This document shows positions 5,981 to 37,516 of a DNA stretch of 39,853 bases, one piece after another. The notes beneath the pieces are model-generated. The model had not been told where the DNA came from. It saw nothing but the letters and a program-made list of their open reading frames with translations, and did no database searches. This DNA is from a virus: the IMG/VR virus record IMGVR_UViG_3300045003_000117, positions 1 through 39,853 of that record; one strand, 5' to 3'. Position numbers and translations under genes: made by a program. Position 1 is the stretch's first letter, and each line of letters starts with the position of its first letter.

Positions 5981-6616
5981 TCACCCCAGATACTCGAGCG
6001 CGATATGAACCGCATATTTCATTGCTCCGGCCGTACCAGACGCATAGTTGCTCGTTTGATACGTAATGTTGGTGCTGGCCTTTGCGTAGATGACTTGCTG
6101 CCCCTGCCCGAATGCACCGGGGGCATTTGCCGTATTTGTCGAAGTTACCGTGCCAGCCAAGAGAGCTACGCTGGAATCTTTGTCCGTCCAGCCAATGCCC
6201 ACGTTAGGCAAAGTGGATGAAGCAGCGTCAGCCGTTGTTTCAACGGCGTAGCACGACACTCGGTACATGCCAGCCCCGTTAGCAGGTACGGCATATAGAG
6301 TCGCAGAAGCAATATTCGCGCTTTGATTGACGAGGTTCTGTTGTGCAACCTCGACAGGAATCCCCGTGCCAACCAGAGGAATACCGCTGTATTGAACAAG
6401 CGGATTCGTGATCTTGGCGACGGTCGGATTTGGATAGCTACCAGACAGATCTCCGCCAGCAGTACCACCCGGGGTCTGGGGTTGCGTCGATAGTGTGTTC
6501 AGCGCCGATTGAGTCTGATTCGACAGACTGATGATTGCCTGCTTCAAAGAAGCAGGATCAGCCATTCCACCGAGAATTTGCAGGATCGACTGAGAAATCT
6601 GGAATTGATCGGACAT
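5981..6616 (-). CDS. fibre-like protein after portal (211 aa)
   Basis: Residues 1-45 are helical (ILQILGGMADPASLKQAI). Residues about 48-70 contain GGDLSGSYPNPTVAKI, a motif often found at the junction of phage fibre proteins. The remaining 140 residues are Thr/Ser/Ala/Tyr-rich and beta-prone, probably a trimeric or jelly-roll tip domain. Its codons are visibly more AT-rich at third positions than the portal gene next to it, suggesting later acquisition. ATG at 6616 with GAGG upstream, three bases behind the portal stop. Placement in the head module argues for a head fibre, though tail fibre cannot be excluded. Confidence 0.7.
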   Translation of the reverse strand: MSDQFQISQSILQILGGMADPASLKQAIISLSNQTQSALNTLSTQPQTPGGTAGGDLSGSYPNPTVAKITNPLVQYSGIPLVGTGIPVEVAQQNLVNQSANIASATLYAVPANGAGMYRVSCYAVETTADAASSTLPNVGIGWTDKDSSVALLAGTVTSTNTANAPGAFGQGQQVIYAKASTNITYQTSNYASGTAGAMKYAVHIALEYLG

Positions 6617-6619
6617 GCT

Positions 6620-8809
6620 TTACCTCGACACTGCCATTGGAGACGCAATCTGATCCGGATGAATCATGCCGGCCGGTCCTTGCGGCCGAGGCTGGCCAGG
6701 CTGCGCGCCGGCGCGCGGCGTGCCGGCAACACCCGGCCCTGCTCCACCAGGTACACCGGGCTGCCCTTGCGGCGGCTTCGGTGCCTGTTGCGCCTGAAGC
6801 TTGGCCTGCATGGCCTGCTGATGCTGCTGCACGTGCGCGCGGAACAGCCCAGCCGGATCTCCCGTGAGCTGCGCGGCCTGCAGATGCGCGGCGATGTGCG
6901 CGCGGTCGTCATCGGCCTGATGGATCTCAGCCGGGAGACCGTTGTGCATCATCAGGTTCTCGTCCTGTGGATCGAGGTGGAACAGGTTCCGCTCGTCGAT
7001 CAGGATGCGCGGCGCTACCTCGGGTCCAAAGATCTGCTCCGTGCCGTACTCGAGAATCGGACCGATATTCAGGCGCCGGCCGTCGAGCTGCTGCGGCGGG
7101 ATGCCGCGCAGGACGTTCATCCACGAGATCATCTGCTGCATGCGCTGCAGGTTCTGTTGGTACGACGTGCCGCACCAGCGGAAGAAGTAGCGCTCTCCGA
7201 ACGCCTGCGGCGGGATCGTCTGCAGGTTCGCGCGCGCACCGAGCTCGCCGAGCACCTCGACGGTCAGCTCCTTGGTGCGGAACTGCCGATCGAGCTCGAA
7301 CATCCATTCGAGCAGCGGATTGAGCATCACTTCCTCGTACCGCTTCGCGTTGTCGATGATGTTCGATTCCTGAGACTGCGCCATGGCAGCCATCTGCGCC
7401 TGATTCTTCCGGCCGGCCGGCATCTTTCCGAGCATGGCGTCGTTGACGTCCATGGACTCGTTGATTTCCTGCTTGATGCCCTGGCAGAGCATCATCGCGT
7501 CCTTGTAGAGAGCTGGGAAGTTCGCGAACTTCGTCTTGTTCGGATCCGTCAGCCACACCGCGGCGAGGCCGACCACCATCGACTGGTAGTTCGGATTCGA
7601 AAGCGGGTCCACCATCGTGATCGGCAGCAGGCTGTACTGCGCCGAGTCCTGTCCCATGTTCCAGTAGTCGTTCAGGTTCCACTGCAGGAACTTGACCGGC
7701 TCGATTTTCGAGATGCCGAAGAACGAGCCCGTGATGCGCTCGATCGGCGCCGAGATGATCGGCCGCTTTCCCGACCAGAACGGGTTCCGGATGATCCCGA
7801 GGATCACGTCCTGGCCGGCGAAGTACACGAAACACGGCTCTTTTCCGTTGCCGAGGTCCAGGTTGGTGTGGACCTCGTAAATCAGCGCGTACTTGAACGT
7901 GCCTTCCGTGCGAATGCCGGCGTCGCCGGTGCGCTTCTTCGGCGGTACGTACTTCTCGCGTCCGCCGTCCGGCTTCGCGAGGTTGTCGATCAACTCCTTC
8001 GCCGACACGCCGACGAAGATGCCTTCATCGACGAACCGCTCCACAGCGTCGATCGTCAGGCGCAGCCGGATTGCGGTCGCGGTGGCCTTCTCGATGTCGT
8101 TGCAGGTCGGCGGATAGACGGCCAGATCCTCGGTGGCGAACTGCACGACGTCCGGCCCTTCGGTCGTGACTTCCTTCTCTTCCTTTTCCCAGTCCCAGTC
8201 GTCCTCGTCCGCGGCCAGGTCTTCGATCTCCCCGCCAAGTTCGTGATCTTCGAGGATCGGCGGCTTCTTGATCAGTTCCGTGATCCGGCGCTGCGTGCGT
8301 GTCCAGTCGATATAAAGATTCCACTGCCCGGTCACGTCGCCGGCGATCAGGTCCGCGCGCACGACGTCCTTGATTGCGGCCGAGCGGATGTAATGCTCGA
8401 GCAGGCTGATCTGCGCGAACGGGATGTTTCCGTCCGGGCCGGTCGCTCCGACGTGCTTGTGGTTCACGGGGAAGAGCTGTGCGATCGTGCGCTTCACGCG
8501 CGCATTGACCGCGTTGCGCACTGCGGGGATGTAGCACTGCGAGTTGCCGGAGTACTGCTGGTTCTCGTCCGGCTGAGCGTTGTAGATCGACCAGTACTCG
8601 GTGCACCGATCCATCTGCTCTTGCTTGTTCTCGTAGCACTTCGCGATCTTGGGGTACAGCTTCGCCGCTTCGGTGTAGGCGTCGGAATCGGGCTGGTCGG
8701 CCCAGTTCTCGATCTCTTCGCCGGTCTTCTCAGCGTCGAGAGCCCGCGCGTCCAGTGTTTCGACCGCGGGCTTGTCGTTCTGCTTGTTCGGCTTCTTCGA
8801 GCGGGCCAT
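6620..8809 (-). CDS. portal protein
   Basis: A 729-residue protein that would form the dodecameric DNA entry channel at one capsid vertex. It lies just after the terminase large subunit and before scaffold and capsid, the usual order. The length fits the large podovirus portals of the P22/T7 class. The N-terminal 30 residues are Lys/Asn-rich; the central region has alternating helical and beta segments (RNAVNARVKRTIAQLFP; PIERITGSFFGISKIEP; the helix around QMAAMAQSQESNIIDNAKRY). From about residue 645 the tail is low-complexity Gln, Pro, Gly and Ala. The call relies on context, length and general resemblance. Confidence 0.85.
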   Translation of the reverse strand: MARSKKPNKQNDKPAVETLDARALDAEKTGEEIENWADQPDSDAYTEAAKLYPKIAKCYENKQEQMDRCTEYWSIYNAQPDENQQYSGNSQCYIPAVRNAVNARVKRTIAQLFPVNHKHVGATGPDGNIPFAQISLLEHYIRSAAIKDVVRADLIAGDVTGQWNLYIDWTRTQRRITELIKKPPILEDHELGGEIEDLAADEDDWDWEKEEKEVTTEGPDVVQFATEDLAVYPPTCNDIEKATATAIRLRLTIDAVERFVDEGIFVGVSAKELIDNLAKPDGGREKYVPPKKRTGDAGIRTEGTFKYALIYEVHTNLDLGNGKEPCFVYFAGQDVILGIIRNPFWSGKRPIISAPIERITGSFFGISKIEPVKFLQWNLNDYWNMGQDSAQYSLLPITMVDPLSNPNYQSMVVGLAAVWLTDPNKTKFANFPALYKDAMMLCQGIKQEINESMDVNDAMLGKMPAGRKNQAQMAAMAQSQESNIIDNAKRYEEVMLNPLLEWMFELDRQFRTKELTVEVLGELGARANLQTIPPQAFGERYFFRWCGTSYQQNLQRMQQMISWMNVLRGIPPQQLDGRRLNIGPILEYGTEQIFGPEVAPRILIDERNLFHLDPQDENLMMHNGLPAEIHQADDDRAHIAAHLQAAQLTGDPAGLFRAHVQQHQQAMQAKLQAQQAPKPPQGQPGVPGGAGPGVAGTPRAGAQPGQPRPQGPAGMIHPDQIASPMAVSR

Positions 8810-24087: not shown

Positions 24088-24410
24088 CCGACCGGGCCCT
24101 GAACCTCAAGGAGGCCGCGGCGCTGCTCGGCATCAGCTACGCGACTGCATACGCGCACCGGAAAGAGCTGGGTTTCTTCCAGATCGGCTCGGTCTGGAGG
24201 ATCTGGCCGGAAAAATTGAAGCAGGCGACCGAGCGGTACAATTCCGACCGACCGGCGCAGGATAACCAGGAGCATGCATCATGGCGATCCGAAAGCGCAA
24301 AGAATCCGACGTCTGGTACCTCGATATCCGCAAACCAGGCGGCGGCCGAATTAGACAGACTACTGGCACGACCGACCGAAAGGAGGCGCAAGAGCTGCAC
24401 GACAAGGTGA
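24084..24410 (+). CDS. excisionase-like helix-turn-helix protein (108 aa)
   Basis: Residues 6-50 are a MerR/excisionase-type winged helix: LNLKEAAALLGISYATAYAH, then FFQIGSVWRIWPEKL. The ATG at 24084 overlaps the previous stop. The 3' 130 bases overlap the integrase gene in another frame, an arrangement also known for xis-int in lambdoid phages. Position right before the integrase suggests a recombination directionality factor. The last 45 residues, encoded within the overlap, have no recognisable fold. Confidence 0.7.
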   Translation: MTDRALNLKEAAALLGISYATAYAHRKELGFFQIGSVWRIWPEKLKQATERYNSDRPAQDNQEHASWRSESAKNPTSGTSISANQAAAELDRLLARPTERRRKSCTTR

Positions 24411-25342
24411 AGCACGAGTTGTGGCGTTCCGCGAAGCTCGGTGAGCGGCCGCGCCGCACCTTCGACGAAATGGCGGTGCGGTTCCTGCAGAAGCACGCGG
24501 GCACGACCGACTACCGCAACAAGCTGCTGCACATCGGGCATTGGCGGACGGTGTTCGGCGGGCGGCACATCGACAGCATCACGGCCGACGACATCTACGA
24601 CAACCTGCCCACGGTGAACCGGCGTACGAAAACGGCACGCACGATCGCCGTCAGCACGCAGAATCTCTACCTAGCGACGTTGCGCGGCATGTTCAACACG
24701 GCGGTGCACGAGTGGGAGTGGATCGACAAGGCCCCACGGCTGTCGGAGAAGCCGAAAGGCCCGAAGCGGATTCGCTGGATCACGCGCGAGGAAGCGCAGC
24801 AGCTGCTCGGCGCGATCCAGGCCGACTGGCTGCGCGACGTAGCGACCTTCGCGCTGGCCACCGGCCTGCGCCGCGCGAACGTGCTCGGCCTGGAGTGGTC
24901 GCAGGTAGATCTGGTGAACCGTCGCGCGTGGATCCACCCGGACCAGGCAAAGGCGCGCAAGCCAATCGGCGTGCCGCTAAACGACGAGGCGGTCGCAGTG
25001 ATTCGCCGGCAGCTGGGCAAGCACGCCACGCACGTGTTCGTCCGGCGCGGGAAGGTGGTGCAGGCATGGAACAACGAGCAGTGGCAGCGCGCGTGCGCGC
25101 GGGCCGGCATCCAGAACTTCCGGTTCCACGATTTGCGGCACACGTGGGCGAGCTGGCACGTGCAGGCCGGCACGCCGCTGAATCGGTTGATGGAGATGGG
25201 CGGATGGTCGAAGTACGAGATGGTGCTGCGCTATGCTCACCTCGCGCCCGACCACTTGGCGGCGCACGCCGCAGCGGTCACAATCTGGGCACAGCCCGAC
25301 GGCGGGTGCAGTGTTGAAACCCCGCACAGCCACGCTGCATAA
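24281..25342 (+). CDS. int: tyrosine recombinase (phage integrase)
   Basis: A 353-residue site-specific recombinase for prophage integration. An N-terminal beta arm-binding part (WYLDIRKPGGGRIRQ), a SAM-like core-binding domain about residues 55-150, and a catalytic domain with Arg197 (ATGLRRANVL), His283 and Arg286 (HDLRHTWA), Trp309 (GGWS) and nucleophile Tyr318 (LRYAH). AGGAG precedes the ATG by eight bases. Unusually, it lies inside the replication operon between the polymerase and the SNF2 helicase. The candidate attachment site follows directly. Confidence 0.93.
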   Translation: MAIRKRKESDVWYLDIRKPGGGRIRQTTGTTDRKEAQELHDKVKHELWRSAKLGERPRRTFDEMAVRFLQKHAGTTDYRNKLLHIGHWRTVFGGRHIDSITADDIYDNLPTVNRRTKTARTIAVSTQNLYLATLRGMFNTAVHEWEWIDKAPRLSEKPKGPKRIRWITREEAQQLLGAIQADWLRDVATFALATGLRRANVLGLEWSQVDLVNRRAWIHPDQAKARKPIGVPLNDEAVAVIRRQLGKHATHVFVRRGKVVQAWNNEQWQRACARAGIQNFRFHDLRHTWASWHVQAGTPLNRLMEMGGWSKYEMVLRYAHLAPDHLAAHAAAVTIWAQPDGGCSVETPHSHAA

Positions 25343-25486: not shown

Positions 25487-25693
25487 ATGGTTTCGTTAGA
25501 GTGTGGACCCAAAACGGGCACAGTGCGCGCGATGCAGAGCCTGAAGCCGCGTGCGCGGCCGGTTCCCCTGGGCCAGTGGATTGTGCACGCCGGTGGCGTG
25601 CAGGCGTTCGGCGCGTCGCTTGACCAGGCGCTGACGTACTGGCAGCGGGCGTACCTGCTTAAGCTGATCGAAGCGCGGCACGCCCGGTCATGA
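25487..25693 (+). CDS. small hypothetical protein before SNF2 (68 aa)
   Basis: Not recognised. It begins MVSLECGPKTGTVRAMQSLK and has a C-terminal helix (ASLDQALTYWQRAYLLKLIE). AAGGA seven bases upstream supports the ATG at 25487 over an in-frame TTG at 25472. Its stop overlaps the helicase start as ATGA, so the two are coupled and may work together. Confidence 0.65.
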   Translation: MVSLECGPKTGTVRAMQSLKPRARPVPLGQWIVHAGGVQAFGASLDQALTYWQRAYLLKLIEARHARS

Positions 25694-27132
25694 GTCGCCG
25701 CGTCTTCGCACCCCACCCGTACCAAGGGCTGATCATCGACCACCAGTCGTGCATCCCGCGCTCGAACGTGTGGGCCGGCATGGGCCTGGGCAAGACGGTC
25801 AGCACCCTGACGATGCTCCGCGACGTCTACGACCTCGGCATCGAGACGCAGCCGACGCTGGTCTGCGCACCACTGCGCGTGGCGCAGTCGACCTGGCCGG
25901 ACGAGTGCGAGAAGTGGGAGCACCTGTCCGGCATGGAGGTCGTGCCGATCCTGGGCGACGCCACCCGGCGCGCGATGCAGCTGCGCCGCGACGCGCCGGT
26001 GTTCTCGATCAATTACGAGAACCTGCCCTGGCTGATCGACTGGTTCAAGCACAACCCCCGCCCGTGGCCGTTTGGCATGGTCGTGGCGGACGAATCGACG
26101 AAGCTGAAGTCGACGCGGATCTCGAACCAGAGGAGCAAGACCGGTAAGGAATTCCTCCGCAAGGGCGCCGGCGGCAGCGTGCGCGGCGGCGCCCTTGCGC
26201 AGGTCGCGCACACGAAGGTGCGGCGCTGGACGAACCTGACCGGCACGCCGTCCCCGAACGGACTGAAGGACCTCTGGGGGCAGCAGTGGTTCGTCGACGG
26301 CGGCACGCGGCTTGGACGCTCGTACACGGCGTTCGAATCGCGCTGGTTCCGGCCGATGAAGGGCGACCGCGGCTACCACGCCATGGAGCCGCTCGAGAAC
26401 GCCCAGGAGCAGATCCAGGCCGCGCTGCGCGACTGCACGATCTCGCTGAACCCGGCCGACTGGTTCGACCTCGAGCAGCCGATCGTGCGCTCGGTCTACG
26501 TCGACCTGCCGGCGCGTGCGCGGCGCCTGTACCAGGACATGGAACGCCGCATGTTCATGGAAATCGACGAGAACCCGATCGAGGCGATGAACGCGGCCGC
26601 GCGCACGCTGAAGTGCCTGCAGCTCGCCAACGGCGCGGCCTATACCGACGAGAAAGGCAGCTGGACAGACGTTCACGACCTGAAGCTGCAGGCGCTCGAG
26701 GACATCGTCGAGGAAGCCGCCGGCATGCCGGTGCTCGTCGCGTACCACTTCAAATCCGACCTCGCCCGGCTGCAGCGTGCGTTCCCGCGCGGGCGGCAGC
26801 TCGACCAGAACCCACAGACGCTGCGCGACTGGAACGCTGGAAAGATCCCGGTGATGTTCGCGCACCCGGCCAGCGCCGGTCATGGGCTGAACCTGCAGGA
26901 CGGCGGCAACATCCTGGCCGTCTTCGGGCACTGGTGGAACCTCGAGGAATACCAGCAAATCATCGAGCGGATCGGTCCGGTCCGTCAGCTGCAGGCCGGT
27001 CACAACCGCCCGATGTTTATCTACCACATCGTCGCGCGCGACACCGTCGACGAGGACGTGATGCTGCGCCGCGAAACGAAGCGGGAAGTGCAGGACATCC
27101 TGCTCGAATCCATGAAGCGGCGGAGGAAATGA
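25690..27132 (+). CDS. SNF2-family helicase/ATPase
   Basis: A 480-residue superfamily 2 motor. Walker A is GMGLGKT (residues 30-36), motif Ia TLVCAPLRV, motif II DEST (134-137), motif III LTGTPSPNGL, and in the second RecA lobe HPASAGHGLNLQ and motif VI QIIERIGPVRQ. The protein is close to the minimal two-lobe size, without extra DNA-binding domains. Such genes accompany VRR-NUC and family A polymerase in many phages and probably act in fork remodelling or replication. AAGCGG-rich basic residues end the protein. Confidence 0.9.
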   Translation: MSRRVFAPHPYQGLIIDHQSCIPRSNVWAGMGLGKTVSTLTMLRDVYDLGIETQPTLVCAPLRVAQSTWPDECEKWEHLSGMEVVPILGDATRRAMQLRRDAPVFSINYENLPWLIDWFKHNPRPWPFGMVVADESTKLKSTRISNQRSKTGKEFLRKGAGGSVRGGALAQVAHTKVRRWTNLTGTPSPNGLKDLWGQQWFVDGGTRLGRSYTAFESRWFRPMKGDRGYHAMEPLENAQEQIQAALRDCTISLNPADWFDLEQPIVRSVYVDLPARARRLYQDMERRMFMEIDENPIEAMNAAARTLKCLQLANGAAYTDEKGSWTDVHDLKLQALEDIVEEAAGMPVLVAYHFKSDLARLQRAFPRGRQLDQNPQTLRDWNAGKIPVMFAHPASAGHGLNLQDGGNILAVFGHWWNLEEYQQIIERIGPVRQLQAGHNRPMFIYHIVARDTVDEDVMLRRETKREVQDILLESMKRRRK

Positions 27133-28757: not shown

Positions 28758-30101
28758 TCAGTAACTCAGTCCTTTCGCGTAGCCCATGGCCTGCAATTCG
28801 GGCAGTTGCTTCTTCAGCCGACCCACACCGATGTCGGTGCGGTAGAACGGACTGTTCGGGATCTTCACCTTCTTGATCGCGCTGTATGCCGACCGACGTG
28901 CGCCGGTGATCGTCTCTCCAGTGCCCGTCGCAATCAGCACGTAGTCGCCGGCCGTCACCGGTCCCGGCAGCTCGACCACCTTGCCGTTCACCTCGCGCGG
29001 CGCCACGCCCATCATCACTTCGGAGAAGTGCAGGTGTTCCATGTCCTCGGCGCCGTAGATCGGGATCCCGCACAGCTCCTTGTTCGTGATCTTCGAGTAC
29101 GGGAAGTCGGGCAACGCCATCAGCACCGAAATGCACACCTCGTCCATGCGGATCTTCAGCGTGTCGCGACCCTGGATCTTGTCGGCCATCCACTGCGCCG
29201 GGTCACCCTCGATCAGTGCGGTCAGGTTGTGACGGATCGGCCAGCCGTCGCGCATCGTCCATTCAAGCGGATACGGGCCCTTCCCGTCGGTCGGGATCAT
29301 GCAGTTCACGTCGACGTAGCCGACGTACCCGATCCGCTTCAGATGTTCGGTGGCCGGCTTCAGCACCTCGTCGGCGAGTTTCGACTGTCGGACGACGCGC
29401 ACCGTGGTGCCCATCTCCCCGGTGTTCACGCCCAGGTCGCCGTTCATCAGCTTCTTGTTTTCCCAGTTCTCGACCCAGCCGCGCGACCAACCGTCCGGGC
29501 CGAAGAACCCGCCCACGGCCATTTCGATGCCGCTGATCTTCTCCTGCAGGATGAAGCCATCCTTGCGCGCCGCCGAGCGGTACTTGTCGATCTTGTTCCA
29601 GCGCCCCAGCATGTAGACCATGTCGGCTGCGCTGTCGGCGACGTAGGACATCGCGCGCTCCCCATCTCCCGACGGCTTCGAAACGAATGCTTTGCCCTGC
29701 TTCTTCACGTAGGCGATCGCAGATTCATAGTCGTGGAACGTCTTGCCGGGGATGATGCGCATCCCGCACTCTTCCATGACTTTCTGCCCGACCTCGCGAT
29801 CGAGTTCCCACTCGACGGCCGCCAGGTTGCAGCCGTAGATCGGGTACCCGATTCGACGGTATGGCTCTAGCATCTCGAGGTAGCTCACGTTGTCGGGCGT
29901 ATAGATGAGATCGGCCCAGCCGAGCCACTTTCGGCGCAGTTCGTCGTAGTCGCGGATCTTCGGCACGATCCCTTCGCCCGCATGACGGTCGGTACCGTCC
30001 GGGCGCGGCTTGTCGTACCAGAGCACCTGATGCCCCCACTCCTGGCAGCGCATCAACCAGTCGAGGCAGTTCGAACCGACGTCGATTGCGAGGATTCTCA
30101 T
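28758..30101 (-). CDS. PurD-like ATP-grasp ligase
   Basis: A 447-residue protein with the overall plan of phosphoribosylamine-glycine ligase. Visible parts are the N-terminal Rossmann-like strand (MRILAIDVGS), the ATP-grasp stretches FVSKPSGDGERAM and LQEKISGIEMAVGGFF, the family hallmark GDLGVNTGEMGTT (about 221-233), the metal region PLEWTMRDGWP, and the C-terminal FYRTDIG (419-425). The usual glycine-rich GSGGREHA substrate loop near the start is GSNCLDWL, so the substrate may differ. ATG overlaps the upstream stop as ATGA. Being in the virion gene block, it may ligate an amino acid or amine to a phage product rather than make purines; this is inference. Confidence 0.82.
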   Translation of the reverse strand: MRILAIDVGSNCLDWLMRCQEWGHQVLWYDKPRPDGTDRHAGEGIVPKIRDYDELRRKWLGWADLIYTPDNVSYLEMLEPYRRIGYPIYGCNLAAVEWELDREVGQKVMEECGMRIIPGKTFHDYESAIAYVKKQGKAFVSKPSGDGERAMSYVADSAADMVYMLGRWNKIDKYRSAARKDGFILQEKISGIEMAVGGFFGPDGWSRGWVENWENKKLMNGDLGVNTGEMGTTVRVVRQSKLADEVLKPATEHLKRIGYVGYVDVNCMIPTDGKGPYPLEWTMRDGWPIRHNLTALIEGDPAQWMADKIQGRDTLKIRMDEVCISVLMALPDFPYSKITNKELCGIPIYGAEDMEHLHFSEVMMGVAPREVNGKVVELPGPVTAGDYVLIATGTGETITGARRSAYSAIKKVKIPNSPFYRTDIGVGRLKKQLPELQAMGYAKGLSY

Positions 30102-31705
30102 GGGGCGGGCGGTCGCTGGAGGAGTTGTTCGGTGATGGCGGGACCGGCGCGGTTGTACAGATTCGCGGCCGCCCAAGGCACCGCGGCAGCGGCCGGATTG
30201 ACCCCGAAGCCCGCGCCGCCGAGCAGACCCGCCACGATGCCGCGCTCGGCCGTGTTCGACGTGCCGGGCTCGCGCAGAAACAGCGAACCGATGTCCGCCA
30301 GCTTGCCCAGTTCGCCGCCCTGACCCATCGCCATCGCACGCTTGCCATACGCATTCGATGTGACGGCACCCATCAGCGCCTTGGGGCTGATGTTGCCGCC
30401 GGGCGACTTTGCTACGAGCGGCTCGATCGTCTTCCCGATCGCATACTGCCGGCGTGCGGCCGCATAGCGCGCCGCTTCATCGGCCGACAGCTGCGGCAGG
30501 AAAGCATCCTCGATTTCGCCCTGCAGGTCGCTAAGCGCGTGCCGCAGATCGCCGTTCGACGTGCTTCGGATAGTGGCCTTCAGCTTCGTCAGGAACGGCC
30601 GCAGCTTCGCCCCATCGAGCTGACGTGCCGCCGACGTCGCGCCACCGCCGGAGAGTTTCTGACGCGGGCCGGCGAGCGCCTCCAGATCGTCGATGTACCC
30701 CTGCACGACGCCCTGCACTTCCGGCAGCTGGTTGCCCTTCGCACGCTGAAGCCGGTTCAGGAATGCATTGTCGACTGGGATGCTGTGCGCAGCCGTGATC
30801 GCATCGATCTCGGTCCCCGACTTCTTCATCGCGTTGGCGTACACCTGGCGCGTCAGCTTGTCGCCCTCACCGCCGATCGCCTGAATCAGGCGCTGATTGA
30901 ACACACGCTGGTTCGCGCCGGACGTCTCACCGGAGAACGGCACGTCAGACGACAGCTGCCCTGCGATTCGCCCGAATTTGTTCTCGTACATCTGGTCCGG
31001 CCGGAAGCGGAAGCCCATTTCGTGCGCCTCTCGCGCGAGCCGCAGCGTCTCCGGATCGACTTCGGGCAGCGCTCGAGCAGTGGCACGCGCCGCGCCGCGT
31101 CCGACGGCATTCGCGCCAGCGCGCGCCGCGCCGGCCGCACCCTCACCGGTGGCCAGCACGCCCCGCGGCACTTCCGGAATCCGCGCGATCATCGGCGACT
31201 CGACCGGCATGCCCTGCAGAGCGTGCATCAGCCCGGAATTGCCGAGCGCTTCGACGTCGCTTCGGCCGGCCTCGGTGCGCGGCTGGTACGTCAGCTTGCT
31301 GGCGAGCGCGGCGCCCGCTTTCTCACCTTCCTCGATGCCCTGCTGCGTGCCGTACTTGCCACTCGTGAGCGTCTTGCCAATGCCGTACGCAGCGCCCACG
31401 GGAGCGGCCAGCGCGCCGGTCGCGGCCGACAGTCCGGCCTCGCCGAGCCCGACTGCGCTCTTGCCCAGGCCGAGCAGGCGCTCTGCGATAGTATCGGCGT
31501 GCTGCGGCGTCAAGCCCGTTGCCGGGCTATCAGGCGGTAGACGGTCGAGAGGCGCGACAGGGCCGCGCGACGCTGCCGGTGCAGCGACACCAGTTGCACC
31601 GAGACGCTGTTGGAGGATCGAAAACGCTTGCTCCTTGGTAGCGCCATCAGGACCCTGCACGTCATAGGTTTTCCCTTCCGGAGAGGTGAAAGTGAAAGTA
31701 GGCAT
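30098..31705 (-). CDS. internal virion/ejection protein C (535 aa)
   Basis: The first 36 residues (FTFTSPEGKTYDVQGPDGAT, then EQAFSILQQRLG) are a segment often found at the start of phage internal virion proteins. After it come Gly/Ala-rich, helix-prone regions with possible membrane-active stretches (GLGEAGLSAATGALAAPVGA), a long central helical domain (about 230-430), and another hydrophobic Gly/Ala stretch near the C-terminus (IVAGLLGGAGFGVNPAAAAV). This composition fits proteins ejected with DNA to form a channel through the envelope. It follows two other such genes. No enzymatic domain is seen. Confidence 0.7.
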   Translation of the reverse strand: MPTFTFTSPEGKTYDVQGPDGATKEQAFSILQQRLGATGVAAPAASRGPVAPLDRLPPDSPATGLTPQHADTIAERLLGLGKSAVGLGEAGLSAATGALAAPVGAAYGIGKTLTSGKYGTQQGIEEGEKAGAALASKLTYQPRTEAGRSDVEALGNSGLMHALQGMPVESPMIARIPEVPRGVLATGEGAAGAARAGANAVGRGAARATARALPEVDPETLRLAREAHEMGFRFRPDQMYENKFGRIAGQLSSDVPFSGETSGANQRVFNQRLIQAIGGEGDKLTRQVYANAMKKSGTEIDAITAAHSIPVDNAFLNRLQRAKGNQLPEVQGVVQGYIDDLEALAGPRQKLSGGGATSAARQLDGAKLRPFLTKLKATIRSTSNGDLRHALSDLQGEIEDAFLPQLSADEAARYAAARRQYAIGKTIEPLVAKSPGGNISPKALMGAVTSNAYGKRAMAMGQGGELGKLADIGSLFLREPGTSNTAERGIVAGLLGGAGFGVNPAAAAVPWAAANLYNRAGPAITEQLLQRPPAP

Positions 31706-33162
31706 CAGTGCTCCTTAACCGACCAACCAGCCGGCAGTCCGGTAGATGCGGAACCTTCACCTCGGCCTGAAATTCGGGCCTTCTGCTGAGCCTGCACTTC
31801 AGTCGGAGCCTGACGCGCCGCCGACATTTCCTTTTCCATCATCGACAACACCGCGTTCAGCTGCTCTGGCGTGCTGGCGGTGGACAGCAGCTCGCGCGCG
31901 TGCTCTTTGTCCGACACCGTCGGCACGCCCGTGGGGCTGATCGCGCGCGCGTATGCATTCACCGACGTGTTCAGTGCAGTGCCGAGCGCAACGACGCGCG
32001 GATCACCGGTACCGGTCTGGGCCGCCTGCATCGCCCGGTTCACACCCGGAAACTCGGTGCGCGGCAGTGCAGCCGACGCTTCACGTACGAGCGGGAAAGT
32101 CTTCTGTGCTTCGGCAACAGCCATGCCGATGTTCGCGGCGCGCGTAGCGCCGGTCCGGGCGGCTGCTTTCTCGCCTTGGAATCCAGCGTTCGCGGCGGCA
32201 ATGTCGGCACCGGTGCCGCCCGCTTCCCGCTCCTGTCGCATGACCTCGCGACGCAGCGCGATGATGTTCTTCGCGCCCTGCGCCCCGCGGCCGAGGTTCT
32301 GGTAGACCGACGTATCGCCGGCGCGCGCCTGCTCCGCCAGAAACTTCAGATCTTCCGGCGAGAACTTCGCATCGTCTCCCATTCCCATTGCGAGCGTTTG
32401 CCGACGAAGCGCAATGGATTCCGCGCGCAATGCATTCGACTCGGCGCGTGCCTGCCGACGGTCTTCTCGGTTCAGTGCGTTGTCCTCAGCTCTCTGGCGC
32501 AACGCGTCGTAGCGCTCCTGAAGCTGTGCAATCTGCAGCTCACGCGTGAACTGCTGCTGGATCTGAGCAGCTTGCGCCTTCGCCTGTGAGTCGAGGATCG
32601 GGGTGAGTTGCTGCAGGCCCATCATGAGGTCCGCACCGGAGAGGCCCTGATCCTTCAGCACCTTGATCGCGCTGTCGAGCGTAAGCGGACCGTTTGGTTG
32701 CTGAGGGGCAGCCGGTGCTGCAGGCGGCGCAGGAATTTGCATAGGCGCTGTTTGCGCCGGACTGCCGGCCGTCGGCATCGGCTGAAACGGTGGCAGAGGC
32801 GGTTTCCCGCGCGCCCCAGTACCTCCACTCATGCCCGGAGGCATTCCAGGCGGAAGCGGAGGCATCTGTCCGGGAGCACCGCCCAGCGACGACTGCGCAG
32901 GTACGGACGGCTGACCGGGATTCGGCGGTTGTGGCGGAGGAGGCATCTGCGGAGGCGGCATTTGCATGGGTTGCCCCTGCTGCCCAATCAACATCGGCAG
33001 CGCATTTCCGGCTGCTTCGAGCGCGGCTTGCTGGCGTTGTCGGTTCTGCTGCTCCGTCTGGAACTGTGCGAGCTGAAGCGCGCGCAATTGGCGCTGCGCG
33101 GCCTGCTGCTCTGCAGCCTGCTGATACTGGAGGAAATAGGGAAGCCCCGCGAGCCCGGCCAT
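31705..33162 (-). CDS. internal virion protein B, Gln/Pro-rich (485 aa)
   Basis: Residues 10-50 are an amphipathic Gln/Ala helix; residues about 60-155 are low complexity, rich in Pro, Gln, Met and Gly (runs such as MPPPQMPPPPQPPN). The rest is a long charged coiled coil (QLQERYDALRQRAEDNALNR) and a helical domain ending PAGWSVKEH. Position between two Gly/Ala-rich virion proteins and this layout suggest an ejection protein, comparable in role to P22 gp16/gp20 or T7 gp14-16, without recognisable homology. The ATG lies three bases behind the previous stop. Confidence 0.65.
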   Translation of the reverse strand: MAGLAGLPYFLQYQQAAEQQAAQRQLRALQLAQFQTEQQNRQRQQAALEAAGNALPMLIGQQGQPMQMPPPQMPPPPQPPNPGQPSVPAQSSLGGAPGQMPPLPPGMPPGMSGGTGARGKPPLPPFQPMPTAGSPAQTAPMQIPAPPAAPAAPQQPNGPLTLDSAIKVLKDQGLSGADLMMGLQQLTPILDSQAKAQAAQIQQQFTRELQIAQLQERYDALRQRAEDNALNREDRRQARAESNALRAESIALRRQTLAMGMGDDAKFSPEDLKFLAEQARAGDTSVYQNLGRGAQGAKNIIALRREVMRQEREAGGTGADIAAANAGFQGEKAAARTGATRAANIGMAVAEAQKTFPLVREASAALPRTEFPGVNRAMQAAQTGTGDPRVVALGTALNTSVNAYARAISPTGVPTVSDKEHARELLSTASTPEQLNAVLSMMEKEMSAARQAPTEVQAQQKARISGRGEGSASTGLPAGWSVKEH

Positions 33163-33165
33163 GTC

Positions 33166-34206
33166 TTACCCCATCGTGAAACCGTACGAATTGCCGCCGC
33201 CCGAGTAGTACGGGCTCGACGTGAACGCACCGCTGAAATCCCCACCACCGAACGAGCCTGTCGCACCGTTGAAGAAGTTGCCGAAGCCTCCGGAATTCTG
33301 GAACGCGTTGCCCAACCCCGAAATGCCTTGCGACACTAGACTGCCGAGAGCGCCCGCGCCCTGAGCCTGGCTCTGAAACGGCACCGATTGCGCGCCAGCA
33401 CCGTAGTTCATGTACGGGATGATCTGCCCTTGGAGCGAGCTCGCCGACGACAGCGGACCTCTTTCCAGCTGCTGCGCGAAGGTATCGGCGAGCGTGCCAG
33501 GGAGAGCCGCGAGGCTGCCGGCCACCTGGTAGGGAATCTGCCCCGACTGCAACATGTACTGCGGAGCCATCGTCAGCGCGTTCGCGCCAGCCTGCCCGTA
33601 GCTACCGGCGGTATTCGCCGCGCCGGTATAGCCCTGCAGGCCCTGCAGCGCGCGCGACAGCTGGTTGTTTTGCCAGTCGATGTTGAAGTTCGACAGCGCC
33701 TGGTTTTGCACACCTGCCCCCGCAGCCGAGGAGCCAAGGCCGTACATCGAGTTCGTCGCGCCGGTCTGCTGTGTGAGCTGGTTGAGCGTGCGATCGTAGA
33801 GCGCGTTCTGCGGGTCGAGGCCCATGTTGTAGACCTGGCGCCCCGCGCCGAGTAGTTGCCTCTGCGTATCGAGGTCGAGATTGCCAAGCCCCGTCAGCGC
33901 GTTGCTGGCGTTAGCGTAGCCAGTGCCCGCGGCGTTCGCTGCATTCTGATAGCCCGTGCCATACAGGTTCGTACCGACGTTCAGACCTTGACTCAGCGCC
34001 TGCTGGTAGTACGGCATCATCCCAGCGATCTGCGACTGCACCGCCCCCTGCTGATCGAGAAGCTTCTGCCAATCTTGATCGGCCAGGCCAAGTCCGGTTG
34101 GCGTGTAGTACGAAGGGCCACCTCCGGATACGCTCGGCGAGGAGCCTCCCGAAACGAGGCCCCCTACAACGCTCCCGACAGCTCCAACAGCTGCTGCGAA
34201 CGGCAT
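33166..34206 (-). CDS. internal virion protein A, Gly/Ala/Gln-rich (346 aa)
   Basis: The N-terminus is a Gly/Val/Ala-rich, membrane-active-looking helix (AAAVGAVGSVVGGLVSGG). The middle contains repeated Tyr/Gln/Asn/Gly segments (YQNAANAAGTGYANASNA). The C-terminus is Gly/Phe/Ser-rich. These traits are typical of podovirus ejection proteins such as those in P22-like and N4-like phages. ATG three bases behind the cupin stop. No catalytic motif is visible. Confidence 0.65.
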   Translation of the reverse strand: MPFAAAVGAVGSVVGGLVSGGSSPSVSGGGPSYYTPTGLGLADQDWQKLLDQQGAVQSQIAGMMPYYQQALSQGLNVGTNLYGTGYQNAANAAGTGYANASNALTGLGNLDLDTQRQLLGAGRQVYNMGLDPQNALYDRTLNQLTQQTGATNSMYGLGSSAAGAGVQNQALSNFNIDWQNNQLSRALQGLQGYTGAANTAGSYGQAGANALTMAPQYMLQSGQIPYQVAGSLAALPGTLADTFAQQLERGPLSSASSLQGQIIPYMNYGAGAQSVPFQSQAQGAGALGSLVSQGISGLGNAFQNSGGFGNFFNGATGSFGGGDFSGAFTSSPYYSGGGNSYGFTMG

Positions 34207-34209
34207 ATC

Positions 34210-34497
34210 TCACCCCTTCATCAAGACTTCTGGATCCGCCACGCTCTCGGCATGGATACAGAGCCACGTCAGATCCGACAGCGCGGTGATTCGATGCGCG
34301 CGCCCCGCCTTCACTTCCAACATGCACGGCCCATGGAGCACCTGCAGTTCACCATCGACGTCCAGCATCGCCGTGCCGTGAGCGAGATAGCTCAGGTGGT
34401 CGTAGTCGTGCACGTGCTTCTGCACTTCCTCACCAGCGCGCAGCGTCTGCTCGCGCGCGTACACGCCACCGGTCGTGAAGTGGTGCTTGATGGTCAT
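34210..34497 (-). CDS. small cupin with four-His metal site (95 aa)
   Basis: A single cupin barrel. Motif 1 reads G-x5-HVH-x3-H (His28, His30, His34) where the usual Glu is His34; motif 2 is AGRAHRI with His68. All four ligands would be His. Metal-binding cupins of this size act as isomerases, dioxygenases or sugar-binding enzymes, so the activity cannot be read from sequence. The ATG overlaps the stop of the hydroxylase as ATGA, which ties it to that enzyme. The frame is open further upstream, but the earlier part is out of character. Confidence 0.75.
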   Translation of the reverse strand: MTIKHHFTTGGVYAREQTLRAGEEVQKHVHDYDHLSYLAHGTAMLDVDGELQVLHGPCMLEVKAGRAHRITALSDLTWLCIHAESVADPEVLMKG

Positions 34498-35057
34498 TTC
34501 TCGCACCGAATCGACACGATCAGCGTGATCCGATCGTCGTCGCCGTCGTTGACCACCTCGTGCTCCTTCGTGTTGTCGAAGTACCAGACGTCGCCCGGCG
34601 CCATCACGACCACGTCGTTCTCGACGCGGTTCACGCACTTCGGGTTCGTCTGTAGCGGCACGTAGAGCTTCGTGTTGTAGTGCTTCACGTGCCAGCTGTC
34701 ATCCGCGTGCGGCAGGATGCGTTTGCCTGCTGGCACCTTCGTGATGAGGACGCCGCCCAGGCGCGTGCCCTCGACCCGCGCCATCAGCCCGAACACAATC
34801 GGTCGTACCTGCGGCAGCGCGTACCACTCCGGGTAGAACACCGCGTCGTGCGCGTCGTTGAATCCGGTGTAGTCGCCGGCCGCCTTGTACGGCTTCTCAT
34901 CGTTGTAACGCAGCCAGATATCCGATACGTCGGCATGCGGGCTGCCCTCGCGCGCCGTGCGGAACGTATGGCGATTCCACAGACCCGGCTGCCGCGCGAT
35001 GGCGAGCAGCAAAGGAGCCGTGTCGATACCGGCAGCGATGCGGACGAGGTTGTTCAT
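34494..35057 (-). CDS. aspartyl/asparaginyl beta-hydroxylase-like 2-oxoglutarate oxygenase
   Basis: A 187-residue double-stranded beta-helix oxygenase. The iron site is HAD (His117, Asp119) and His166 in TKEHEVVN; Arg176 (DDDRITLIV) would hold 2-oxoglutarate. Around them are ITKVPAGKRILPHADD and APGDVWYFDN, typical of the Asp_Arg_Hydrox family. Known members hydroxylate Asp or Asn in proteins, or free amino acids. ATG 35057 overlaps the holin stop as ATGA, and the cupin follows by ATGA. Placement between lysis and internal virion genes suggests expression late in infection and a virion protein or small late product as substrate. Confidence 0.82.
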   Translation of the reverse strand: MNNLVRIAAGIDTAPLLLAIARQPGLWNRHTFRTAREGSPHADVSDIWLRYNDEKPYKAAGDYTGFNDAHDAVFYPEWYALPQVRPIVFGLMARVEGTRLGGVLITKVPAGKRILPHADDSWHVKHYNTKLYVPLQTNPKCVNRVENDVVVMAPGDVWYFDNTKEHEVVNDGDDDRITLIVSIRCEK

Positions 35058-35452
35058 TTGCCTTTGACCTGTTGATAGACGTGCATGCCGCCCAGGCCGA
35101 GCATGCCGATCGTGATCGTCGCGAGCTGCGTCAGGTCCATTTCCGTCAGGACGATGTGATGACCGAACAGCGCGGAAATGTCGCTGATTGCCGGCCGCAA
35201 CACGAAATTCCAGGCGTACCCACACACGCACACCCAGCCCATTCCGCCGCGCCAGTGCTGCAACGGGTCGGCGCTCTGTGCCTCGGCCTGGTTGATCTGC
35301 ATCTGGCCGGTGATCTGCGCGAGTTCGCCCGTCTGCTGAAGCTGGAGCAGTTGGAGCTTTGCTGCGGCCGCCTGCGCCGGATCCGGCCAGACGCGGTCGA
35401 TGATCTTCCCGACGACGTCGGAGACAGCGGAAATCGGATCGAGGACTCCCAT
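35054..35452 (-). CDS. holin of the GTA 3TM type (132 aa)
   Basis: The N-terminus (DPISAVSDVVGKIIDRVWPD), the Gln/Ala helix after it and the phrase FVLRPAISDI fit the family of 3TM holins described from gene transfer agents. Hydrophobic segments are about residues 70-87 and 107-126, with a weaker one near the start. Such proteins open the inner membrane so that the endolysin can reach the cell wall. It starts within the endolysin stop codon (TGATG), so both are made together. Confidence 0.8.
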   Translation of the reverse strand: MGVLDPISAVSDVVGKIIDRVWPDPAQAAAAKLQLLQLQQTGELAQITGQMQINQAEAQSADPLQHWRGGMGWVCVCGYAWNFVLRPAISDISALFGHHIVLTEMDLTQLATITIGMLGLGGMHVYQQVKGK

Positions 35453-35934
35453 CACGCGGCTCCCTTCAAGAGGTTGTTGGCGATGCGGTTCGCCCATCCG
35501 TGGCTGAACGCCGGCCAGTTATGCAGGTCGGCCAGATACTTCAACCGGTATGCGAGGAACCGCGCGACGATGCGAACAGGGTCCGCCGCATTGACCGCGG
35601 CGATCGTCACCGGTCCGATCCGACCGTCCACTTTCGTGTCGGCGGCCTGTTGCAGCCAGGTCACGGGCAGTCCGCCGTTGTATGCGGCGTCGAATACCTG
35701 GAACGCCACGCGCGGGTCGAACTGGTCGCAGTAGTACGGATCCCAGTAGACCCGCTTCGCAATCAGCCGAGCCGTCGCCTGCGGCATCGAGCGCATGTCG
35801 CCGCCATACCCGTTCGCGCGCGCGACGCGGGCTGTGACGCCCCACATCGTCTCGCCGCCCGGGTCGGCGGGGTTGTTCGAGTAGGCGCCCTCATTGCCCA
35901 TCAGGGCTTCGAAGGCGTCGTCGAAGCTGCTCAC
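35452..35934 (-). CDS. endolysin, GH108 family muramidase
   Basis: A 160-residue peptidoglycan hydrolase. Residues 9-30 contain the family signature EALMGNEGAYSNNPADPGGE, with Glu15 as the catalytic acid; the C-terminal part (GRIGPVTIAAVNAADPVRIV) matches the peptidoglycan-binding half usual in this family. No signal peptide is seen, so release depends on the holin that follows. The GTG start overlaps the stop of the small gene before as GTGA. Spanin genes were not recognised nearby. Confidence 0.92.
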   Translation of the reverse strand: MSSFDDAFEALMGNEGAYSNNPADPGGETMWGVTARVARANGYGGDMRSMPQATARLIAKRVYWDPYYCDQFDPRVAFQVFDAAYNGGLPVTWLQQAADTKVDGRIGPVTIAAVNAADPVRIVARFLAYRLKYLADLHNWPAFSHGWANRIANNLLKGAA

Positions 35935-36155
35935 AGCTTGCCCACCGCGCGCAGGATCTGCTCGACCTTCTGCTCGGCGGTGGCCTCGGCGTCGTTGACG
36001 ATCGTGGTAACGCGCGATTCCAGGTCGCCGAGCTCCTTCGCTGCGTTGCCCAGGCCAACGATTTCCTCGACCTTGTCGACGAACGCGCGGCCGTCATTTG
36101 CGAGCGCCTGGAAACGGGCCTCGACGGCGGATTTGATCGATTCGAGCATGTCCAT
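35931..36155 (-). CDS. small coiled-coil protein in lysis cluster (72-74 aa)
   Basis: Not recognised. The whole protein is helical and acidic (ESIKSAVEARFQALANDGRA; VDKVEEIVGLGNAAKELGDL), without a membrane segment. AGGAG is six bases from the ATG at 36149, which is therefore a better start than the ATG at 36155. It overlaps the endolysin start. It might regulate lysis or be a small virion protein. Confidence 0.6.
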   Translation of the reverse strand: MDMLESIKSAVEARFQALANDGRAFVDKVEEIVGLGNAAKELGDLESRVTTIVNDAEATAEQKVEQILRAVGKL

Positions 36156-36158
36156 CTC

Positions 36159-36347
36159 CTAGAAGAACTTCTTCAGGCCGCCGCCAGCCCCATAGGCTGC
36201 AACGGCGACCAGGGCATACACGAAGACGCGCCACGCAAGCCCGAGGATTCCGCGGCCGACGTTGAGCTGAAACCGCTGCGTAATGCCGCTTTCGATCTGC
36301 GCGGCAATCGCTTTGACGTCGTCTTCGGTGAGTGTCCGGTTTCCCAT
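36159..36347 (-). CDS. small membrane protein, possible second holin or antiholin (62 aa)
   Basis: Residues 1-28 are polar (MGNRTLTEDDVKAIAAQIES); residues about 33-55 form one transmembrane helix (ILGLAWRVFVYALVAVAAYG), followed by a Lys-containing tail. It lies just ahead of the endolysin and holin genes. A single-span pinholin or antiholin, or a component of the envelope-spanning lysis machinery, would fit. Three bases separate it from the next gene. Confidence 0.6.
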   Translation of the reverse strand: MGNRTLTEDDVKAIAAQIESGITQRFQLNVGRGILGLAWRVFVYALVAVAAYGAGGGLKKFF

Positions 36348-36395
36348 GTTTTCCCCGATGGTTGGTGCAGATGGTAGTTTTGTTTCCCGTCTCGG

Positions 36396-36866
36396 CTAAT
36401 TCGACGGGGTGATGGTGAAATTGTCGGTAACGCCAGGTCTCAAGATGTTTCCCGGGTTGCTGTTCACCTGCCAGGAAGTCGAGCTGAATTTAGGAAGCAC
36501 GATCGAGCCGCCGGTCGTGTTGTTTTTCAAGAGGATATTTCCGCTCCAATTAGGCGCACTGCTGAAACTCACGGAGACCGTATTGCCCGGCAGGCCACCA
36601 GACGTGGCGCCGAGCTGCGCGATTTGCCCCCGGAACCACGGTGAGGAGAATGGTGCGGTAATACCCGTACCACCGCCGCCCGATGTCGAGGTCGCGTTTC
36701 CGGTCGCCGTGCCCGTCTGTCCGAGCAGGTTCGAGAAGCTGACGGGTGTTCCCGACTTCCCGGCGAGCGCGAGTACCCACGGATGTTCGAGGTGCAGCGG
36801 AAGCGACAGTGTCAGCTCGCTGGCGATCTGCGACATCGAGAGAGGAAACGAAGGGGGCAGCGTCAT
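36396..36866 (-). CDS. tail tip or fibre-associated protein (156 aa)
   Basis: The opening MTLPPSFPLSMSQIASELTL, then LHLEHPWVLALAGKSGTPVSFSNLLGQ, is a pattern seen at the front of many phage tail proteins. A Gly/Ser/Thr linker (about 54-70) leads to a C-terminal beta domain with several Trp and Asn. The ATG overlaps the stop of the S74 fibre gene as ATGA. It could be a receptor-binding tip or fibre cap. It is 48 bases from the next gene, the largest gap in this block. Confidence 0.65.
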   Translation of the reverse strand: MTLPPSFPLSMSQIASELTLSLPLHLEHPWVLALAGKSGTPVSFSNLLGQTGTATGNATSTSGGGGTGITAPFSSPWFRGQIAQLGATSGGLPGNTVSVSFSSAPNWSGNILLKNNTTGGSIVLPKFSSTSWQVNSNPGNILRPGVTDNFTITPSN

Positions 36867-37516
36867 TTGACTGGCTCCAGCAGTGCGCGCAGGCGCATCA
36901 CTTCCTTCGCCAACTCGACGCATGCGGCAAGTGCTGCCTGCCCGTACGCAACGGACAGCACCCCCTCCTCGTCGGTCCTGACCGCCTCCGGCAGGAAGGC
37001 CTGCAGCGATTGCGCACCGACGCCGACCTGACGCGTGTCCGTATCGGTGCGGGTATACGTCCCGCAACGCAGCGAGGCGAGTTGCTCGATAAAATTTCTG
37101 TCGAGCGGCGTCCAGTCCTTCTTGAGGCGCTCGTCAGACGTCGCGGTAATGTCTCCGCCGGCCGTCACGTTACCGGTGTCATCGACAGAAAATACCGACG
37201 CGGAGTACGCATTATTGACGACCTGGAACGTACCGTTCTGTGCGCGGATAGTCTTGTTCGGTGCGGTCGAACCGTTGCCTTCCAGAAGAATCCCGGCGCC
37301 GTTGCTATCGCCCGTGCCAACGAGCGTAAGGAGCTGATTGGGGTTGCCGACCGATGTGACCGTGACTGCGTTCACAGACAGCGTCTGCACATTGGCCGGC
37401 ATCGCGTTCGCGTTGACCTGGTTCACGATGAAGCTCAGGTCCGACATGACCTGTGATGCGTCGGCGGTCGTGCCGTTCTGCAGCGTGACCGGCAAGTTGC
37501 CGATGATGTTGGCCAT
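36863..37516 (-). CDS. tail fibre with S74 intramolecular chaperone (217 aa)
   Basis: Residues 1-120 are beta-prone fibre shaft. From residue 121 comes the S74 peptidase/chaperone domain: TSDERLKKDW (126-135) with the catalytic Ser127 and Lys132/Lys133, then LRCGTYTRTD and RQVGVGAQSLQAFLPEAV, ending in a helix (VAYGQAALAACVELAKEVMR). In known cases the chaperone trimerises the fibre and then cleaves itself off at the Ser. AGGGG upstream of the ATG. The shaft is short, so this may be a small spike. Confidence 0.85.
   Translation of the reverse strand: MANIIGNLPVTLQNGTTADASQVMSDLSFIVNQVNANAMPANVQTLSVNAVTVTSVGNPNQLLTLVGTGDSNGAGILLEGNGSTAPNKTIRAQNGTFQVVNNAYSASVFSVDDTGNVTAGGDITATSDERLKKDWTPLDRNFIEQLASLRCGTYTRTDTDTRQVGVGAQSLQAFLPEAVRTDEEGVLSVAYGQAALAACVELAKEVMRLRALLEPVK

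Follow-up and report, generated by a model that had tools for sequence, protein, structure and literature searches.

Two small genes in the late operon of a temperate, short-tailed phage, one for a putative Fe(II)/2-oxoglutarate oxygenase (OX) and one for a cupin with four histidines (CU), raise the question of what oxygen and metal chemistry would be doing between the lysis genes and the genes of the virion. The stretch of DNA that was analysed, hereafter the window, is the whole of virus record IMGVR_UViG_3300045003_000117 (39,853 nucleotides); the phage is considered temperate because the window contains a tyrosine integrase gene. A SNF2-type helicase gene adjoins the integrase gene.

Organization of the locus

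The genes on the minus strand follow one another in the order endolysin, holin, OX, CU, ivpA, ivpB, ivpC and a gene for a PurD-like ATP-grasp enzyme (Table 1). Four-nucleotide ATGA overlaps join the holin stop to the OX start and the OX stop to the CU start, and CU is separated from ivpA by 3 nt. An oxygenase and a cupin gene at these positions, coupled by ATGA to each other and to the holin, had been proposed in a sequence-only reading of this DNA, and both the ORFs and the overlaps were confirmed. No promoter-like site was found in 33000-36400, so that OX, CU and their neighbours are probably carried on one late transcript; Rfam also gave no match. The same reading had described the three genes after CU as encoding internal virion proteins. 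This stands for ivpC, the only one of the three with a match in PHROGs; ivpA matched no family, and it and ivpB are presumed to be virion proteins from their size, composition and synteny. The gene that follows the three encodes the PurD-like enzyme and not a virion protein, and it overlaps ivpC by an ATGA.

Table 1. Features of the OX-CU locus and other features of the window referred to in the text
Feature	Coordinates	Strand	Family match, residues or basis
Tyrosine integrase	24281-25342		
SNF2-type helicase	25690-27132	+	
PurD-like ATP-grasp enzyme	28758..30101 (ORF to 30176)	-	TIGR00877, E 4e-26; GARS_A + GARS_C
ivpC, DNA-ejection protein	30098..31705	-	phrog_26400, PHROG match E 3.9e-26
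ivpB, presumed internal virion protein	31705..33162	-	Synteny only
ivpA, presumed internal virion/ejection protein, directly after CU	33166..34206	-	Position and synteny
CU, 4-His cupin, 95 aa	34210..34497	-	PF07883; H28, H30, H34, H68; also conserved C80, H82
OX, Fe(II)/2-oxoglutarate oxygenase, 187 aa	34494..35057	-	PF05118; H117, D119, H166, R176
Holin (GTA_holin_3TM)	35054..35452	-	ATGA overlap with OX; ORF listing has an upstream start at 35497
Endolysin	35452..35934	-	Glyco_hydro_108 + PG_binding_3
Tail fiber	36863-37516	-	Peptidase_S74 chaperone domain

Identity of OX and CU

A search with the OX amino acid sequence identified PF05118 (E 1.6e-15; 57.7 bits against a cut-off of 22.6), and the CU sequence matched PF07883, Cupin_2 (E 7.6e-8; 32.4 bits against a cut-off of 27.2). 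The metal-site residues named in the sequence-only reading proved to be present and invariant in relatives: H117, D119 and H166, which make up the HxD...H iron ligands, and the 2OG-binding R176 were retained in 68/68 nonredundant relatives of OX, and H28, H30, H34 and H68 in every OX-linked cupin (78/78 HHHH). The OX model (pLDDT 95) displayed the double-stranded beta-helix fold, with top structural matches that all lie within the 2OG oxygenase family, namely the proline 3- and cis-4-hydroxylases, a nucleoside-antibiotic hydroxylase and AspH. In the profile comparison L-proline cis-4-hydroxylase scored best among the solved relatives (E 1e-12), and AspH came behind it (5e-6). For CU the model (pLDDT 89) shows a plain cupin that matches many cupins at Z ~11. 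CU also matched phrog_24280/phrog_12032, annotated as 'tail fiber adhesin' (PHROG E 3.9e-12), a match that rests on the cupin sequence.

Conservation of the pair

In IMG/VR, 59 loci were retrieved with the OX query and 52 with the CU query, and CU was adjacent to OX in every complete OX locus at an identity of at least 44%, mostly with a -4 overlap. To avoid selection on OX, loci of the lineage were collected by means of the downstream ATP-grasp gene; both OX and CU were present in all 51 of the 51 loci that extend 7.5 kb or more upstream of that gene, which makes the pair part of the lineage core and not occasional cargo. The dN/dS values of 0.064 for OX and 0.054 for CU, against 0.16-0.23 for ivpA-C, revealed strong purifying selection, on a par with that on the best-conserved genes in this phage. 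Two further genes deserve mention here. The tail fiber gene evolves fastest among the genes compared (dN/dS ~0.30). The PurD-like enzyme, with a dN/dS of 0.061, ranks first in conservation among the proteins of this lineage; it is core in this lineage only, and as a candidate third member of the module it was rejected after being found missing from the non-lineage OX loci checked.

Beyond the lineage, the pair was kept in L062 and L063 (59 and 44% OX identity), two loci that share with the window none of the 16 other proteins tested and in which the gene after OX-CU bears the DNA-ejection signature of phrog_598. In L272 the order is reversed, with CU preceding OX through an ATGA overlap and the cupin carrying four histidines. 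Co-inheritance as a block would by itself be hard-pressed to explain a pairing that outlasts a changed background and a changed gene order. The earlier view of a true functional pair, late and beside virion genes, is upheld, and the possibility it had left standing, that a neighbourhood search in other phages would show the pair not to be conserved beyond chance, fails on the same three observations. The genome collection contained a single close bacterial relative, a Paraburkholderia tropica prophage, together with two distant matches in a Sphingomonas MAG; these two OX-like matches lie at 6001-7902 of the contig (L275), with no clear phage context.

Exchange of the partner gene

More distant relatives of OX (35-50% identity) have no cupin, and a gene of about 150 codons occupies its place. 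Pfam assigned this partner to the GNAT acetyltransferases in 29/33 cases, and at 29 of the 41 loci PHROGs identified the gene after the pair as phrog_598 'DNA ejection'. Further scans brought the collection to 408 OX loci. Clustering at 85% identity left 94 clusters, of which 90 had enough downstream sequence. A census of these 90 by profiles gave 68 with GNAT and 17 with cupin, and a phrog_598-like gene followed 59 of the 68 GNATs; the GNAT and ejection profiles were made from these same loci, and Pfam and PHROGs agree with them independently. Inspection added L272, with its cupin upstream, and L434, whose GNAT belongs to another subfamily (Pfam E 7.5e-4, just under the cut-off). The final count for the 90 nonredundant clusters was thus 18 cupin, 69 GNAT and three with neither (L002, L375 and the Sphingomonas L275). 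Having been built with OX queries, the census shows the neighbours of OX and not how frequent OX is. In a maximum-likelihood tree of OX, cupin-partnered and GNAT-partnered clades were split with 100/100 support, and L002, a long branch without either partner, fell on the cupin side. The cupin is one of two interchangeable partners of OX, the other being the GNAT. Gene 13 of T7, which lies before gene 14 in the same slot, was tested for homology to the GNAT partner and rejected, as it gave no match and has a Pfam family of its own.

The pre-ejection slot without an oxygenase

A cupin relative directly precedes the ejection gene in phages that have phrog_598 and lack OX, among them the BA3-like Vibrio phages, VvAW1, DSL-LC05 and P26218; the exception is Pseudomonas phage PAE2 (L282), which has neither cupin nor GNAT. 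A GNAT without OX was observed before presumed ejection genes in Vibrio Zobellviridae and in a Manatee Spring phage (L283, L285, L286, L287). Among the slot cupins without OX, HHHH was found in 0/62 nonredundant sequences, most of which read K/A-H-H-R. Since the cupin tree places HHHH and the lost site on either side of about one split, the contrast between 78/78 and 0/62 amounts to roughly a single evolutionary event and the counts cannot be treated as independent. The four histidines were also kept in two siphophage cupins (L005, L006) that have no OX. Within the slot, metal site and oxygenase travel together, which suggests a joint chemistry. On the cupins of this slot, the labels 'tail fiber adhesin' and 'short tail fiber' seem to lack a basis, and an assembly factor may occupy the position. 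Such cupin-fold proteins under these labels, with the metal site lost, are widespread before phrog_598 genes (L004, L278-L281, L445-L524).

A possible role in virion-protein modification

The reading that we prefer, at a probability of about 0.4, is that OX and CU form a late catalytic module which modifies a virion protein of the ejection apparatus or the tail tip. The genes, their intact catalytic residues, the predicted folds, the obligate pairing, the replacement of CU by a GNAT, the core status and the position are observations; the enzymatic activity, the late timing and the virion-protein substrate we infer. The two genes would be translationally coupled and expressed late alongside the lysis and virion genes. 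OX would act on its substrate as a soluble Fe(II)/2-oxoglutarate hydroxylase, and CU, as a four-histidine metal cupin, would either carry out a second oxidative or processing step or serve as the metal-dependent helper of OX; in most relatives the GNAT found in place of CU would supply the second step. The slot of the module would be directly before the genes for DNA-ejection (internal virion) proteins, and the ejection or tail-tip protein would be modified during assembly. A virion-protein substrate is favored because the module is core, late and strongly selected, and because many lineages have it beside ejection or tail-tip genes. Synteny is common to late phage operons in any case, and adjacency by itself therefore does not identify the substrate. 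Among the ejection proteins no substrate motif specific to OX-bearing phages emerged, the DPGYxF...SAAARG motif of phrog_598 proteins being present equally without OX. When ivpA was compared with phrog_598 by hhalign, the same region lined up at a probability of 0.4%, which is not significant; homology is thus not demonstrable, and the module precedes two different ejection proteins. A locus that counts against the ejection slot is that of Limnohabitans phage DC33 (L003, PQ492659), where OX-GNAT lies between the terminase and portal genes. A wider and more doubtful proposal is that many podophages have a module dedicated to post-translational modification, a 2OG hydroxylase with a 4-His cupin or a GNAT, which would hydroxylate and then further oxidise or acetylate DNA-ejection proteins before packaging, and so tune ejectosome assembly or passage through the envelope.

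That the closest solved relatives of OX use free proline counts against a virion protein as substrate, and it makes a serious rival of the idea that the module acts late on a small molecule or a component of the cell envelope, aiding release or blocking re-adsorption. The target might be an amino acid, the acyl chain of lipid A or of an ornithine lipid, or another surface group. Small molecules are also substrates of GNATs and of 4-His cupins, and in the window OX adjoins the holin and endolysin genes. However, a position behind the holin is peculiar to this lineage, the relatives lying mostly before ejection genes, and inspection of the 187-residue OX by eye revealed no membrane segment. The similarity of OX to the lipid hydroxylases in NCBIfam is weak (OlsC, E 1.6e-4; LpxO, E 2.3e-3), with scores of 17 bits for LpxO and 21 bits for OlsC against equivalog cut-offs of 500 and 450. 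On balance we consider such a substrate somewhat less likely than a virion protein.

Two other explanations are improbable to much the same degree. OX and CU could be morons or auxiliary metabolic genes of use to the lysogen or its host, a status proposed for the DC33 homologue, and the integrase, hence the temperate lifestyle, would suit this; against it stand the presence of the pair in all 51 lineage loci, its ATGA coupling within the late operon without a promoter-like site of its own, and the occurrence of the module at the same late position in very different phages. Alternatively, both could be structural or assembly factors in which the cupin and double-stranded beta-helix folds have no catalytic part. 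The PHROG tie of CU to tail fiber families points that way, and the stand-alone cupins of the slot, having lost the metal site, indicate that a non-catalytic role in the slot exists; but the invariance of the OX catalytic residues and of the 4-His site in OX-linked cupins is difficult to reconcile with it. Regulation of lysis through modification of the holin or endolysin, to which the ATGA coupling with the holin in this lineage would point, is very improbable, given that no holin gene lies upstream in L062, L063, PfAn1 and the GNAT-type phages; its place is taken by a small gene of tail-tip- or fibre-like character or by one without assignment.

Significance

Each of the enzyme families involved (PF05118 oxygenase, cupin and GNAT) is already known. 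A description of a phage oxygenase with a cupin or GNAT at ejection genes was not found in the literature searched, which comprised open-access papers and is accordingly weak evidence; relative to those papers the paired module, the partner exchange, the place where the module lies and the association of OX with a cupin whose metal site is intact appear to be new. Relatives of OX with a cupin or GNAT occur in hundreds of phage contigs, usually just before DNA-ejection genes, and so widespread a pairing points to an overlooked enzymatic step, most likely the modification of a virion protein. As far as we found, modification of phage virion proteins by oxygen chemistry is essentially undescribed; a core paired oxygenase module beside ejection genes would make enzymatic modification of ejection proteins testable by mass spectrometry. 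The pairing rule, an oxygenase with an intact 4-His cupin or with a GNAT, also gives a name to genes now listed as 'tail fiber adhesin', as hypothetical or as auxiliary metabolic.

Comparison with known systems

The sequence-only reading had described OX as Asp/Asn hydroxylase-like. Human AspH does share with OX the Pfam family, the fold (Z ~14) and the positions of the His ligands and the 2OG-binding Arg, yet it binds iron through two His residues only and needs its TPR domain (PMC7251097). OX, in contrast, has the Asp119 ligand and lacks a TPR domain, and its best matches are the proline hydroxylases. With a full HxD...H triad and no TPR domain, OX should not be called an Asp/Asn hydroxylase; judged by its sequence features, that name is just the label of its Pfam family. 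L-Proline cis-4-hydroxylase (4P7W) and proline 3-hydroxylase type II (1E5R) have in common with OX the PF05118-type double-stranded beta-helix, the HxD...H triad and the distal Arg (Z 14.6-15.7). Identity is only 18-20%, however, and OX stops after the core, with 187 aa against ~290; the C-terminal domain that the proline cis-hydroxylases carry beyond the core is absent, and the alignment covers just the first 175-187 of their ~290 residues.

Among phages, ORF8 of DC33 and its counterpart in Pseudomonas phage PfAn1 are homologous to OX (36-40% identity) and have a second enzyme gene immediately behind them, which differs from that of the window phage in encoding a GNAT and not a cupin. The oxygenase of DC33 was listed as an auxiliary metabolic gene, and its neighbour was reported as an N-acyltransferase that the authors did not link to the oxygenase (PMC12195039). 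The DC33 record is classed as Inoviridae, yet its terminase and portal genes are those of a tailed dsDNA phage.

The cupin-like PHA00672, phrog_24280 and phrog_12032 proteins ('tail fiber adhesin/short tail fiber') of Vibrio, Thalassomonas and Shewanella phages have the fold of CU by sequence and occupy the same slot, with a phrog_598 DNA-ejection gene coming next, but no oxygenase is nearby and the 4-His site is lost. The metal site of CU finds its closest parallel in TM1459, a Mn-binding cupin with His ligands H52/H54/H58/H92 (PMC5031596). Although identity is ~11% and many other cupins equal TM1459 in fold score (Z ~11), its histidines are spaced exactly as in CU (2, 4, 34; HxHx3H...H), and the all-histidine cupin is therefore already a known kind.
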